Below, in pieces: positions 3,856 through 29,880 of a DNA stretch of 36,943 nt; the first letter of the stretch is position 1, and every line of letters starts with the position of its first letter. The position numbers and the translations under genes were made by a program. Below the pieces are notes generated by a model. That model searched no databases, was not told where the DNA came from, and saw nothing but the letters and a program-made list of their open reading frames with translations. The DNA is from Minisyncoccota bacterium (lineage in GTDB: Bacteria; Pseudomonadota; Alphaproteobacteria; Elsterales; Elsteraceae): NCBI GenBank assembly GCA_030054295.1, contig JASGCE010000008.1, positions 1-36,943 of the forward strand. Reading direction: 5' to 3'.

Positions 3856-4315
3856 AAAAACAAAAGGAAAAAGAAAAGCGGTTTGGCGGCAGCCAAGCGC
3901 GAAGCGCAATTTCGTAAGTCACTGACCGTTCTACAATTTGAAGCGTCGCAGACACCTCCCCGTCCGTCACGATCAAAAAATTTGTAGAATGCTTAATAGC
4001 GCGTTCGATTACTCCCATGAATTATTTATCCTTGCGAGCTTGCGAACAAAGTGAGCAAAAACGCGAGTAAGGGTAAATAATTCATAAGAACGCGCTGGTT
4101 TATTATCCAAAGCTAACGCCATCGGTTCGGGCTCGGCTAGCAAAACGCGAACTGCCGCACATAGGACTATTTTTGGCGTTGGCTTTGTACCGCGGCAGCT
4201 TCACAAGTTTTGCTGCGCCGACCCTCTCCGATAGGCGGGTTAATGCTGGGCTTCGCCCAGACCCATTTAAGGCTTCGCCTTAAAAATCCAGCAAGGCTCC
4301 GCCTTGCAACCGATA
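3856..4315 (-). repeat. R2 composite intergenic element, copy A
   Basis: Read on the minus strand, the order is as follows. First come three small hairpins (AAGGCGGAGCCTT, TTAAGGCGAAGCCTTAA, CTGGGCGAAGCCCAG). Then come AACCCGCC.ATCGG.GAGGGTCG, GCAAAACTTGTGAAGCTGCC, and the stretch around GCCGAGCCCGAACCGATGGC. The 97-bp palindrome occupies 3999-4095 (GCGCGTTC...GAACGCGC). A conserved 3' block containing GCTTCAAATTGTAGA follows, then a TTGGCTGCCGCCAA hairpin (3883-3896) and a T-rich tract. The same modules occur in copies B, C and D. This copy fills most of the gap between PBP1A and guaA; its terminator-like end lies in the direction of PBP1A transcription and could end it. Bases 3788-3855 are AT-rich with no clear promoter. 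Confidence 0.85.
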
Positions 4316-7157: not shown

Positions 7158-8435
7158 ATGACAAAAATTTGCCAAATATTTACAATTGCGATTGTTGCTG
7201 TGGTCATGGTTTTTGGTTTCTCCCCCACTGCCCGCGCTGACGAGGCCATCGAAAAGGCCACATTCGATGCCTGTCTACCCAAGGCCGAGGCCGGTGATGC
7301 CGAGTGTCAAAACATTGTTGGCTTGTCCTATGAAAAGGGTAATGGTGTGCCAAAGGACTATTCACAGGCGGCTGCTTGGTACCGCAAAGCAGCAGATCAG
7401 GGCAATCCATATTCCCAAAAAAATCTTGGTGATTTGTATTACAGTGGTAATGGTGTGGAACAGGATTATGCTCAAGCGATCATATGGTACCGCAAAGCTG
7501 CCGAACAGGGTTATATATATGGAGCACAAAACAAGCTTGGTGATATGTATTTTGATGGCAAGGGTGTTGCGAGGGATTATGGTCTAGCTATCATATGGTA
7601 CCGAAAAGTCGGCGATCACTCAAATGCATATGCACAATACCGAATTGGTCGGATGTATAATTTGGGTACTGGTGTTCCGCAGGACTATGACGAGGCGATC
7701 ACTTGGTACCGCAAGGCTGCCGAACAGGGTAATGGTGCGGCGGAATATTACCTTGGCTTTATGTATCTTAATGGCCAAGGGGTCGTTAAGGATCTTATAA
7801 CGGCTGAAAAATACTTTAAGTCTGCGCAGGCGAAAAACATTTCTGAAGCAGTCCCATATCTTAAACAAATTGCTGAAGAAAAAAAACAACGCATTGCCGA
7901 AGAAAAAATGGCAGAAAAACAACGACTTGAAGCCTTAAAGGCCTTTAATGCCATCAGGGTCAAGGCCGATAAGGGCGATGCAAAGGCGATGGTCGCGGTG
8001 GGTTCGATCTATCTGACTGGAAACCCCGCCGTGACTCAAGACTTTACCAATGCCATGAGCTATTTCAAACAGGCCGTCGCCAAGGGTAACATCGACGCCT
8101 ATAGGTTTACGGGTAGAATGTACGAGAAAGGTTTGGGGGTTCCTGCTAGTTGCGAAGTCGCAAATCAATATTATCAAAAGGCGGCTAATAAAGACGATAA
8201 TTGGGCGATTGAAGCCATTGGTAAATGTAATAAAATCATAGCCAATAATGCTTATCAAAAGGGATATGAGGCCGGCAAAAAGGTTGGCTATGAGGCTGGT
8301 ACTGAATCTGGATTTAATCGTGGCGTAGCTGTTGGTTATAATAATGGCTATGGCAGTGGTAAGGCGGCTGGCTATAACAGCGGCTATGGCAATGGGCAAA
8401 GCGCGGCAAATTGGACAAACTTTTGGAATCAATAA
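7158..8435 (+). CDS. Secreted Sel1-repeat protein with C-terminal (Gly-x-x-x)12 tail
   Basis: 425 residues. A Sec signal peptide (residues 1-27, hydrophobic core IFTIAIVAVVMVFGF) ends ARA before DEA, so the protein is probably periplasmic. Residues about 44-235 carry five to six Sel1/TPR-like repeats (consensus GNGVxxDYxxAxxWYRKAAEQG). Next is a charged helix (EEKKQRIAEEKMAEKQRLEA, about 238-257), then a second pair of Sel1 units (about 275-355). Residues 369-416 are twelve uninterrupted G-x-x-x units rich in Tyr and Asn, followed by ANWTNFWNQ. Sel1 solenoids scaffold protein-protein contacts, and the GxxxG periodicity suggests a tightly packed helix. The gene stands alone with its own promoter and its partner is unknown. 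The family assignment is secure and the role is not. Confidence 0.88.
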   Translation: MTKICQIFTIAIVAVVMVFGFSPTARADEAIEKATFDACLPKAEAGDAECQNIVGLSYEKGNGVPKDYSQAAAWYRKAADQGNPYSQKNLGDLYYSGNGVEQDYAQAIIWYRKAAEQGYIYGAQNKLGDMYFDGKGVARDYGLAIIWYRKVGDHSNAYAQYRIGRMYNLGTGVPQDYDEAITWYRKAAEQGNGAAEYYLGFMYLNGQGVVKDLITAEKYFKSAQAKNISEAVPYLKQIAEEKKQRIAEEKMAEKQRLEALKAFNAIRVKADKGDAKAMVAVGSIYLTGNPAVTQDFTNAMSYFKQAVAKGNIDAYRFTGRMYEKGLGVPASCEVANQYYQKAANKDDNWAIEAIGKCNKIIANNAYQKGYEAGKKVGYEAGTESGFNRGVAVGYNNGYGSGKAAGYNSGYGNGQSAANWTNFWNQ

Positions 8436-10585: not shown

Positions 10586-11094
10586 TGGCGCGGATGGTTA
10601 AACTCGAGCCCCTGACTCGCGCGGCCTTTGCTGATTTTGGCGATGTGATCGATTGCGATGGAGTGACTCCCAAGCTCATCAATCAGGGGTTTGCCAAGCG
10701 GTACAATAACCTGTCTCCGACTACTGACTTGGGCGGTTTGCCTGCCGATGGTTTGAATGTCAATATCAGTATTTTTGTCGCCCAGCCGCGACCAATGCCG
10801 ATTGAGATTAAACTGATGGAGCGGCATCCGCTGGCGACTCAGGCCTTTTATCCGACGCAGAATCAGGAATGGTTGGTGGTGGTGGCGGGGGATCCTCAGC
10901 GGGAGGAGTCTTACCGCGGCTTCAGGGCGACCGGGCGGCAAGGGGTGACCTATGGCAAGAATATTTGGCACCATCCGCTGTTGGTCTTGCAGCCCGACAG
11001 TTATTTTGTGATTGTTGATCGCCGCGGGCCAGAGGCTAACCTCGAGGAGGTGGAGCTGAAGGAATCGCTGTTTGTGGGGTTGGGTTTGTTTTAG
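10585..11094 (+). CDS. allA: Ureidoglycolate lyase
   Basis: Cleaves ureidoglycolate to glyoxylate and urea, the step after allantoicase. The 169 residues fit the AllA cupin family: LEPLTRAAFADFGDVID at the N-terminus, AKRYNNLSPTTDLGG, NVNISIFVAQPRPMPIEIKLMERHPLATQAFYP, and the barrel end YGKNIWHHPLLVL. It starts at ATG 10585 overlapping the alc stop, so the two are made from one transcript; ATG 10594 (MVKLEPL) is an alternative. An R1 repeat begins at the last codons (GTTTGTTTTAG includes the stop). Together the two genes release both nitrogens of allantoate as urea. Confidence 0.94.
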   Translation: MARMVKLEPLTRAAFADFGDVIDCDGVTPKLINQGFAKRYNNLSPTTDLGGLPADGLNVNISIFVAQPRPMPIEIKLMERHPLATQAFYPTQNQEWLVVVAGDPQREESYRGFRATGRQGVTYGKNIWHHPLLVLQPDSYFVIVDRRGPEANLEEVELKESLFVGLGLF

Positions 11095-11182
11095 GAAAAG
11101 AATGTCCCCCCTCCCTTCAGGGAGCGGGGGATAGCAAGTCTTGGCGAGTGCTTACGAGCGTTAGACTTGCTTGGGGGGTAGG
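11083..11182 (+). repeat. R1 double-hairpin repeat, copy b
   Basis: Starts in the last codons of allA (GTTTGTTTTAGGAAAAGAATG). The first hairpin is CCCCCCTCCCTTCAGGGAGCGGGGG and the second CAAGTCT...AGACTTG, and the copy ends CTTGGGGGGTAGG. It is almost identical to 26233-26351. It pairs with the inverted copy c 94 bases further on. The spacer 11183-11275 carries GGCCTGAGCGATTCCTTA, also present near 8790. Confidence 0.8.
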
Positions 11183-11275
11183 CAGGCACGGCCTGAGCGA
11201 TTCCTTATTCATTTGTTTTTAACATTGTACTCCAATACTAAATGATAAGGCATGGCACCGCTAACTTCGCGCGGC

Positions 11276-11423
11276 ATACCCCCCAAGTCGTTCTAAGATT
11301 TTCGCTGCGCTTTGCTTGCTCAAATCTAAGAACGACTATCCCCCGCTTTCCCTCGCGAAAGGGGGGACATTCTTTGTCTAAACCAAATCTTTGTTGGTGC
11401 AACAAAACCTGAAACTGCTCTAG
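11276..11423 (-). repeat. R1 double-hairpin repeat, copy c (inverted, with GCTCTAG tail)
   Basis: Read on the plus strand it opens ATACCCCCCAAGTCG, holds GTTCTAAGATTTTCG...AAATCTAAGAAC and CCCCCGCTTTCCCTCG, and ends CAACAAAACCTGAAACTGCTCTAG. Its long stem matches copy a (252-372). The tail matches 1983-2011. Beyond it, 11424-11560 contains several GCGGGTAATGACA or inverted versions and a GTTTGCCC/GGGCAAAC hairpin; no gene is visible. Confidence 0.8.
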
Positions 11424-21115: not shown

Positions 21116-21280
21116 TTAACTTCTCCTGCTCCTGCTCCAATTTCCTTCTTTTGCTATTCTCTCCTGCTCCTGCTCCAATTTCCTTCTTTTGCTATTCTCT
21201 CTGTCGGCATAATTGATAAGGAGACCAAAGCTCAGAATAAAAACATTGAATATGATTAAGGTAATTACCAAGGGGGTCAT
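21116..21280 (-). CDS. Tiny single-pass membrane protein with re-framed C-terminus
   Basis: 54 codons. ATG 21280 overlaps the stop of the upstream small gene as ATGA. Residues about 3-24 form a hydrophobic helix (LVITLIIFNVFILSFGLLIN), followed by a charged tail beginning ADRENSKRRKLEQEQE. A 38-base unit is tandemly duplicated in the tail (21122-21159 and 21160-21197). Because 38 is not a multiple of three, the second copy is read in another frame (RIAKEGNWSRSRRS). With a single copy the frame would end in EKLKLPPVQN just at the stop of the convergent gene, so the duplication looks recent. No homologue is recognised. Evidence for a real gene is the coupling, the membrane helix and the charged tail; expression is unproven. 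Confidence 0.5.
   Translation of the reverse strand: MTPLVITLIIFNVFILSFGLLINYADRENSKRRKLEQEQERIAKEGNWSRSRRS
21122..21197. repeat. Perfect 38-bp tandem duplication
   Basis: Two identical, directly adjacent units, 21122-21159 and 21160-21197, each beginning TCTCCTGCTCCTGCTCC and ending TTTTGCTATTC. They lie in the 3' part of the small membrane-protein gene and shift its frame. Confidence 0.95.
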
Positions 21281-23469: not shown

Positions 23470-23775
23470 AAGAATGCGGATGCAGGGCGAAGCCAGCCCG
23501 AACCGACGGCCTTCGTTCAGTAAAAGATTCCAGCGCGTTCTTATGAATTATTTACCCTTACTCGCCTTTTTGCTCACTTCGTTCGCAAGCGAGAAGGGCA
23601 AATAATTCATTGGTAAAAACGAACGCGCTGTACTTCAAAATATAAATTCATGATTGTGCTGAGCGGGGAAGTACCTGCGGTGCTTCAAATTGTAGCAAAG
23701 GTCTGTGACACCCTAACTTGGGCTTCGCCCATTGGCTTGCAGCCAAACCGCTTTTTCTTTTTTTTCTTTTTTACT
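23470..23775 (+). repeat. R2 composite intergenic element, copy B
   Basis: GGGCGAAGCC and AGCCCGAACCGACGGC come first, then the palindrome at 23533-23628 (GCGCGTTC...GAACGCGC, stem ATGAATTATTTACCCTT with AAGGGCAAATAATTCAT). The 3' block has GCTTCAAATTGTAGCAAAGG, a GGGCTTCGCCC hairpin, and finally the TTGGCTTGCAGCCAA hairpin (23732-23746) followed by ACCGCTTTTTC and more T runs. The element fills the space between the ilvB promoter and the stop of the GAF-protein gene. Confidence 0.85.
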
Positions 23776-25429: not shown

Positions 25430-26221
25430 ATGTTTAACTTTAAGAGTAATAGTCTGAAGCTTTCATCAAAGAGGCTTCACTCAAGCCTAGCCCTGGTTGC
25501 CATTGCCGCAATTGGCAGTGCCATGACCCCCGCCAAGGCCGAGACCAATGGCTTTTATGGCCAAATCGATCTGGGGCTGGGTATTATCATGCCAACTGAC
25601 AAGACCATGAAGACAAAATCCACGACATTTGAGTCCATCACCAAGCCAGCCGATTCCGAAAGGAATGATTTGCAGACTACTAATTTTAGGGGTATAGGTT
25701 CATTTCTATCCTTGGGGATTGGCTACGCCTTTAACGATTTCGTGGCACTAGACTTGAATTTTCGCGGGGGAGCCTTGCCGCCCAGGGTAACCGATAGGAA
25801 CGACAAGGAAAAGAACGATACTGAACTTGTCTCTGCCAATTCTATGTCAATCATGCCCAAGGTTCATGGCTATTATCCCCTCGGTGAAAAATCGCGGATC
25901 GGTGCATTTGTGGGTGCCGGCTATGGCTTCAATCGACATATGCAGGAAATCACCAAACTCGACGGCACCACGACAGTTGAAGTGACGGAGAAGGAAAACT
26001 TCGTCTGGTCGGCTGGTTTTGAATATGGCTATTTGCTGGAGGAGAATCTTCGCTTGAATGTGACCGCGGGCTATACTGACCTTGGCAAAATCGAGTGGAA
26101 CAATAGCACTGCCACCACGACGGCAATATCCAACGGCTATTCGACTGTGACCAAAGTCGATCGCTATAGTCAAAAACTGTCGAGCGTCGATCTGACAGTG
26201 GGGATTGCCTATCAGTTCTAG
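25430..26221 (+). CDS. Outer-membrane beta-barrel protein
   Basis: 263 residues. A signal peptide (core SSLALVAIAAIGSAM, cleavage after PAKA at residue 37) is followed by alternating amphipathic strands: GFYGQIDLGLGIIMP, FLSLGIGYAFNDFVALDLNFRG, SIMPKVHGYYPLG, RIGAFVGAGYGFNRHM, NFVWSAGFEYGYLLEENLRLNVTAGYTDLG. The last strand is SSVDLTVGIAYQF, with the C-terminal Phe recognised by the BAM complex. The length and about eight strands fit the OmpA-like/porin_OMP_beta-barrel group found in alphaproteobacteria. TGAGGA is a good ribosome site. Its elaborate promoter suggests regulated expression. An R1 repeat follows its stop. Transport or adhesion role unknown. Confidence 0.85.
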   Translation: MFNFKSNSLKLSSKRLHSSLALVAIAAIGSAMTPAKAETNGFYGQIDLGLGIIMPTDKTMKTKSTTFESITKPADSERNDLQTTNFRGIGSFLSLGIGYAFNDFVALDLNFRGGALPPRVTDRNDKEKNDTELVSANSMSIMPKVHGYYPLGEKSRIGAFVGAGYGFNRHMQEITKLDGTTTVEVTEKENFVWSAGFEYGYLLEENLRLNVTAGYTDLGKIEWNNSTATTTAISNGYSTVTKVDRYSQKLSSVDLTVGIAYQF

Positions 26222-26232
26222 AGTCTTTGCAG

Positions 26233-26351
26233 TTATTGTTGAAACAACAAAGGTTTGGTTTAAGAAAAGAATGTCCCCCCTCCCTTCAGGGAGCGGGGGA
26301 TAGCAAGTCTCAGCGAGTGTTTACGAGCGTTAGACTTGCTTGGGGGGTAGG
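26233..26351 (+). repeat. R1 double-hairpin repeat, copy d
   Basis: TTATTGTTGAAACAACAAAGG and TTTGGTTTAAGAAAAGAATG lead into hairpin CCCCCCTCCCTTCAGGGAGCGGGGG and hairpin CAAGTCT...AGACTTG, ending CTTGGGGGGTAGG. It is nearly identical to copy b (11083-11182). It lies directly behind the beta-barrel gene and may end its transcript. Confidence 0.8.
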
Positions 26352-26387
26352 CATAATTTATTGTAGTCTATTGCTAAGTTCTAAAAC

Positions 26388-26527: not shown

Positions 26528-26792
26528 AATCCAGCGCGTTCTTATGAATTATTTAACCTTACCCGCAGTTTTGCTCACTTCGTTCGCAAGCGAGAAAGGT
26601 TAAATAATTCATGGGAGTAATCGAACGCGCAATTAAGCATTCTATAAATTTTTTGATCGTGTCGGGTGGGGAAATGCCTGCGGCGCTTCAAATTGTAAAG
26701 AAGGTCTGTGACACTTAACCAGCACTACTGGGCTTCGCCCAGACCCATAAGGGCTCTGCCCTTAACCCGCCAAGGCTGCGCCTTGGAACCGG
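26528..26792 (+). repeat. R2 composite intergenic element, copy C
   Basis: The palindrome at 26534-26630 has stem ATGAATTATTTAACCTT with AAGGTTAAATAATTCAT, a perfect pairing. It is followed by AATTAAGCATTCTATAAATT, GCGCTTCAAATTGTAAAGAAGG and GTCTGTGACAC. Three hairpins close it: CTGGGCTTCGCCCAG, AAGGGCTCTGCCCTT and CCAAGGCTGCGCCTTGG. Unlike copies A, B and D, it lacks the T-rich end and carries the hairpin array on the other side of the palindrome, so the modules have been rearranged. Confidence 0.8.
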
Positions 26793-29403: not shown

Positions 29404-29880
29404 TATGCAAGGCGAAGCCTTGCGCAGGGGATTGTAAGGGGATGCAATCCCCTTATGGCGAAGCCAACCCGCCAATCGGTGAGGGTCGCCAACCGCCCGA
29501 ATGGGCGGACATTATACCAATGCGCAAAACTTGTGAAGCTGCCCCTCCAAAAATTTAACGACATAAAACGGACTATGCGGGGCAGTTCTCGTTTTGCAAG
29601 CCGAGCCCGAACCGATGGCGTTCGTGGGTCTTTTAAAGCGCGTTCTTATGAATTATTTATCCTTACTCGCCTTTTTGCTCACTGTGTTCGCAAGCTCGCA
29701 AGGATAAATAATTCAATGGGAGTAACGAACGCGCTAAAAACATAATAATAACAACAAATTGCGCGGTATTCTTATTTGTCTGCGACGCTTCAATTTGTAA
29801 ATCGGTCTGTGACTCCCACACATTCGCTGCGCTCATTGGCTTGCAGCCAAACCGCTATTTTTTCTTTTTTGTAATTTTTA
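29404..29880 (+). repeat. R2 composite intergenic element, copy D
   Basis: The longest copy. It starts with hairpins GCAAGGCGAAGCCTTGC and AAGGGGATGCAATCCCCTT, then GGCGAAGCC, AACCCGCCAATCGGTGAGGG, GCGCAAAACTTGTGAAGCTGCC and GCCGAGCCCGAACCGATGGC. The palindrome is at 29638-29734 (stem ATGAATTATTTATCCTT with AAGGATAAATAATTCA). A diverged 3' block (GCGACGCTTCAATTTG) follows, then hairpin TTGGCTTGCAGCCAA (29836-29850) and a T-rich tract to 29880. It is collinear with copy A except for an extra segment holding ACCGCCCGAATGGGCGG. It ends 48 bases before the scpB stop. Confidence 0.85.

Follow-up and report, generated by a model that had tools for sequence, protein, structure and literature searches.

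Structured palindromic sites that lie beside single, often foreign genes are familiar from integrons, whose attC sites are direct and arrayed. In Streptococcus pneumoniae, the BOX, RUP and SPRITE elements are dispersed, intergenic, strongly folded, enriched between convergent genes and restricted to their lineage, BOX being modular and SPRITE a duplex with a U-rich tract (PMC3049150). REP sequences and REPINs, which are linked to RAYT transposases, are palindromic and extragenic and show compensatory changes in their hairpins (PMC3116915). Mobile insertion cassettes (MICs) and MITEs have ends without a transposase, passenger genes being optional (PMC6542083, PMC3049150), and the dif modules of Acinetobacter plasmids hold individual adaptive genes, toxin-antitoxin pairs among them, between short inverted Xer sites, with no recombinase of their own (PMC6449649).

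We analyzed a 36,943-nucleotide stretch of DNA (the window) that carries four copies of a repeat, R2, together with the rest of its host genome, a single fragmented metagenome-assembled genome of an uncultured alphaproteobacterium (355 contigs, completeness 95.5%) that lacks close named relatives (its GuaA is only 71-72% identical to the best matches among named genomes). Taken alone, R2 is a modular, palindromic, dispersed intergenic repeat, a known sort of element; being also folded and biased to convergent gaps, it belongs with BOX and SPRITE by type, though not by family. Compared with BOX, RUP and SPRITE, the R2 family is unrelated in sequence, larger and exchanges more modules, and its end module also brackets genes. 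R2 shares palindromic form, extragenic location and compensatory hairpin changes with REPs and REPINs, but it is far longer and no RAYT-type gene was found in the host genome. The whole family, with its end module around defence-like genes, is closest in logic to MICs and dif modules. As in MICs and MITEs, its ends come without a transposase and its passenger genes are optional; here, however, the ends consist of long modular hairpins, different on the two sides, with no duplication and no partner insertion sequence identified, and in place of short Xer sites on plasmids they are hairpins of 160-250 bp at chromosomal sites. Unlike attC sites, they are dispersed and inverted, the inversion holding at six of six two-ended units, and on this ground we rejected an integron cassette.

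The first-pass annotation had placed four intergenic copies, A to D, in the window, and all four are where it put them and lie between genes. With the T-rich tail taken as the 3′ end of the unit, their parts are as follows.

3861 to 3915, minus strand: copy A, tail hairpins and T-rich tract
3917 to 3973, minus strand: copy A, 3′ hairpin segment (3hp)
3999 to 4095, minus strand: copy A, R2 palindrome
4115 to 4241, minus strand: copy A, second palindrome (hp2)
4234 to 4314, minus strand: copy A, M5end, a chain of small GC hairpins found at 40-odd further places in the genome
23493 to 23512, plus strand: copy B, degenerate right arm of hp2 (3 mismatches)
23533 to 23628, plus strand: copy B, R2 palindrome
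23653 to 23768, plus strand: copy B, 3hp and tail
26534 to 26630, plus strand: copy C, R2 palindrome
26656 to 26712, plus strand: copy C, 3hp
26728 to 26791, minus strand: copy C, inverted M5end replacing the tail
29404 to 29463, plus strand: copy D, variant M5end with exchanged hairpins
29464 to 29619, plus strand: copy D, hp2 with an extra nested hairpin
29638 to 29734, plus strand: copy D, R2 palindrome
29780 to 29869, plus strand: copy D, 3hp and tail

A full unit thus runs from M5end, which starts with CGG-A/T-TGCAAGG, through hp2 (some 120-150 bp long, with CCAATCGGTGAGGGTCGG and CCGAGCCCGAACCGATGG as its outer arms), some 20-25 bp of linker, the R2 palindrome (bounded by GCGCGTTC...GAACGCGC), the small hairpin 3hp (of the type GAAGTACC-TGC-GGTGCTTC) and the tail hairpins to the T-rich tract. 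The composite nature proposed for the unit was borne out: R2, 3hp and tail nearly always occur together, and the 5′ part varies, consisting of M5end-hp2, of another palindromic family, or being absent. The reported collinearity of copies A and D holds through the 5′ hairpins and hp2, and A, B and D do close with a TTGGC...GCCAAACCGC hairpin and a T-rich tract. Some copies, C among them, have an inverted M5end where the tail would be. The two ends are unlike in most R2 copies, and several show inverted ends at the level of modules.

Other repeats occur alongside. The MCCCC palindromic family (TCCCCCCTCCC...GGGAGCGGGGG), with copies at 11085-11423 of the window, at 26218-26353 upstream of copy C and elsewhere, is dispersed independently of R2. 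The abundant MdRS family (TGTCATTMCCCGC...GCGGGKAATGACA) often abuts M5end or R2 (L003, L006, L010 and L024) and is also found on the outer border of several gene units described below (C206, C286, C304 and C92). A third palindromic element of about 190 bp, MGGGG (CACCTCCCC...GGGGAGGTG), directly abuts R2 at L002, L022, L028 and L017, as though hp2 had been replaced. At L015, L018, L046 and L169 the T-rich tail has grown into microsatellites whose unit differs by copy (CTTTTT, ATTTTTGTTTTT, GTATTTT). The window further contains a 38-bp unit duplicated perfectly in tandem (21122-21197) and a 118-nt inverted repeat, 92% complementary, with arms 10.9 kb apart (256-373 and 11275-11392).

Genome-wide, a covariance model of 30 palindromes matched R2 61 times in 2.72 Mb, a number well beyond chance (E ≤ 2e-10, the E-values being rough), and additional truncated copies lie at contig ends. 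The four copies of the window are therefore a sample of a family that occupies more than 60 intergenic places with a unit of about 300-480 bases. R2 was absent from the eight genomes of the same family that were searched, where a single stray match of 45 bases concerned a hairpin end, and the composite was absent from the other 189 genomes of a 190-genome search of the class. The phages and plasmids searched gave no match, and exact patterns of the R2 core were absent from IMG/VR and GTDB contigs.

The proposal that the structure of the palindrome is preserved stood in part. The stem position put forward as covarying (C-G in B, A-T in C, T-A in D) does not covary: 60 aligned copies give C.A 35 times, T-A 21, C-G twice, and A.A and A-T once each, the 3′ base being almost fixed as A. 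The 3′ arm of copy B reads AAGGGCAAAT and not AAGGYTAAAT, so its C-G pair adjoins an A.C mismatch. The hairpins themselves stay complementary. Across R2 and 3hp in the 60 copies, 13 pairs show two-sided changes, compared with 4.3 ± 0.8 in shuffles and 2-4 in slid controls, counts that treat the copies as they stand, ignoring shared ancestry, and that owe much of their R2 signal to the divergent copies C83 and C252, plus C107, whose two arms have changed in a matching way. Two inner pairs of 3hp swap (C-G/U-A/A-U and G-C/A-U), with zero broken cells in 60 copies. Covariation is clearest in hp2, where eight pairs of the main class show two-sided changes and the arms within a copy match with a mean of 7.5, against 3.9 ± 0.3 when arms are shuffled between copies (2000 shuffles, maximum 5.0, 38 distinct arm pairs). 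The 3hp and hp2 counts likewise ignore shared ancestry. Single copies show whole blocks changed together, and one template-switch event can yield such changes (PMC8794818). The complementarity of the arms may result from re-copying by template switching, from selection on the hairpin, or from both.

Such covarying hairpins also fit the first reading of R2 as a family of structured noncoding RNA genes ending at a Rho-independent-like terminator, a reading that we now regard as very improbable. R2 matches no Rfam family, the T-tract starts six bases past the stem, after AACCGC, some tails run into microsatellites, and between co-directional genes the orientation of R2 shows no preference (8 versus 6); moreover, the 5′ parts are exchanged freely. 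The mismatches in the R2 stem do point to one strand, almost all of them being A.C on the tail strand and hence G.U on the other (10 versus 1 column events, p = 0.01). The strand so favoured, however, would carry the T-tract at its 5′ side, contrary to the terminator idea, and because two founder columns dominate the asymmetry and hp2 leans the opposite way (4 versus 1), we dropped it from seemingly decisive proof of a one-strand RNA to a hint. A riboregulator role for R2 is unsupported. Stable hairpins fold on both strands, the folding energies sharing the weakness of the founder columns, and this would suit R2 copies kept between convergent genes as bidirectional 3′-end structures, for termination or for protection against 3′ exonucleases. 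Convergent gaps account for 14 of 22 with R2 versus 25 of 166 others (p = 3e-6; genes were called with a simple custom codon model that may have missed AT-rich ones), and SPRITE, a hairpin with a U-rich tract, is similarly placed in pneumococcus (PMC3049150). Tolerance of insertions gives an equal bias, however, and the convergent bias of BOX, RUP, SPRITE and insertion sequences in pneumococcus has been read in that way (PMC3049150). Given also the lack of orientation bias in co-directional pairs, and that half of the long convergent gaps manage without R2, a 3′-end function is unlikely, if less so than an RNA gene. The genes next to R2 have background GC content (mean 0.53; 5.8% below 0.40).

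The M5end-hp2 module also occurs without R2. Genome searches with M5end (40 of 77 candidates scored) and with the hp2 right arm, which occurs at 52 places, gave 10 loci lacking R2 and readable on the inner side, picked for the absence of R2 and not for their cargo. Six of these are closed by a second, inverted module, so that the units have inverted ends at the level of modules, though the hp2 class often differs from one side to the other. At most ends the inner border is sharp, directly after GATGGC or GATGGCGT. The genes enclosed or adjoined, with their GC content, are the following.

C1, two-ended: 0.31; protein of 254 aa, no family (no match in Pfam, PADLOC or NCBIfam)
C33, two-ended: 0.31; PDC-S06 (5e-123)
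C63, two-ended: 0.26 and 0.30; proteins of 176 and 246 aa, no family
C206, two-ended: 0.35 and 0.30; AbiH (Pfam 2e-57) and an ankyrin protein
C286, two-ended: 0.32; PDC-S35 (3e-90) with a CAP12/Pycsar TIR domain (5e-38)
C347, two-ended: 0.36; AAA_21 and OLD-type TOPRIM (PADLOC Old 6e-33)
C304, one-ended: 0.30; RT-DUF3800, type VII-A1 (5e-166)
C92, one-ended: 0.37 and 0.45; McrBC
C302, one-ended: 0.42, 0.33 and 0.44; DUF2971/PDC-S31 (3e-22)
C163, one-ended: 0.42 and 0.41; two proteins of 232 aa each, no family

The innermost gene has a GC content below 0.40 at 8 of the 10 loci, compared with 16 of 356 background ORFs (4.5%, five N-masked contigs removed; p = 4e-9). Anti-phage families (OLD-like, AbiH, TIR effector, RT-DUF3800, McrBC and two candidates) are present at seven loci, as against none of 20 control genes of the window, which gave weak or housekeeping matches only (p = 6e-5); since the control genes are ordinary and not AT-rich, foreign origin may account for part of this enrichment. 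Across 511 kb on other contigs, every AT-rich ORF was more than 500 bp away from the nearest module, so these repeats are not generally drawn to AT-rich genes. At C271, an AT-rich nuclease-like ORF (PBECR3) immediately precedes the right hp2 arm of an R2 composite and connects the gene-carrying with the non-coding form.

We excluded C84 from the gene units because the gene next to its truncated R2 arm is an ordinary DoxX gene. AT-rich ankyrin-repeat proteins matching the candidate defence family PDC-M72A are found in the C206 unit and near a truncated R2 arm on C84 (L236, 604-1743; L241, 888-2582 and 3358-4530). A Sel1-repeat protein is encoded at 7158-8435 of the window (Pfam 2.5e-64), and a similar one inside the C302 unit.

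The genome-wide spread, together with an end piece bordering foreign-looking genes, points to a mobile-element platform rather than to a new RNA gene. On balance we favour the interpretation of a modular, hairpin-built and lineage-specific family of non-autonomous mobile elements, with R2 as its non-coding form and with inverted M5end-hp2 ends that bracket AT-rich, mostly defence-like units. A more specific version, in which paired, inverted and covarying hairpin ends move single anti-phage systems without a transposase of their own, R2 being the proliferating non-coding form, is put forward tentatively. In such a scheme, a recombinase or transposase acting in trans would recognize ends able to fold into hairpins, possibly in single-stranded form, and would move whatever sits between them, cargo that may be of benefit; template-switch correction, selection on the hairpin or both would keep the arms complementary, and selection against insertions close to promoters would explain why R2 survives mostly between convergent genes. 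A genome-wide search, limited to Y1_Tnp, found no transposase or recombinase, no transposase was seen bracketed by M5end in the loci read, no target-site duplication was seen by eye in the listed flanks, and no empty site was found.

The unlike hp2 classes at the two ends of a unit fit module exchange better than recent simple transposition. With the lack of duplications and the presence of other palindromic families at the same borders, they also speak for passive repeats, that is, for modules spreading and recombining as neutral or selfish DNA around AT-rich genes that came separately, without moving them. This account is rather doubtful, although it is the least improbable of the alternatives, as the modules face inward and inverted at all six two-ended loci (chance of 0.0002 under random orientation), their inner borders are mostly sharp, and the 511 kb of other contigs lack AT-rich ORFs within 500 bp of a module. 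Movement by a RAYT transposase, which extragenic hairpins with compensatory changes would recall as in REPINs (PMC3116915), was rejected and has next to no probability, Y1_Tnp (PF01797) being unmatched in this nearly complete genome under a search that was positive in control genomes.

These findings bear on how individual defence systems get from site to site by routes other than phages, plasmids, Tn7-like elements and integrons. Our results show that a repeat family of a sort normally dismissed as intergenic junk has an end module common to compact AT-rich, mostly defence-bearing units, and the fast two-sided change in the hp2 stem offers a natural test of template switching versus selection on structure. 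If the proposed mobility is real, the end module would provide a handle for finding more defence genes and the enzyme that moves them, and the three units without a known family (C1, C63 and C163) would be places where new defence genes might be found.
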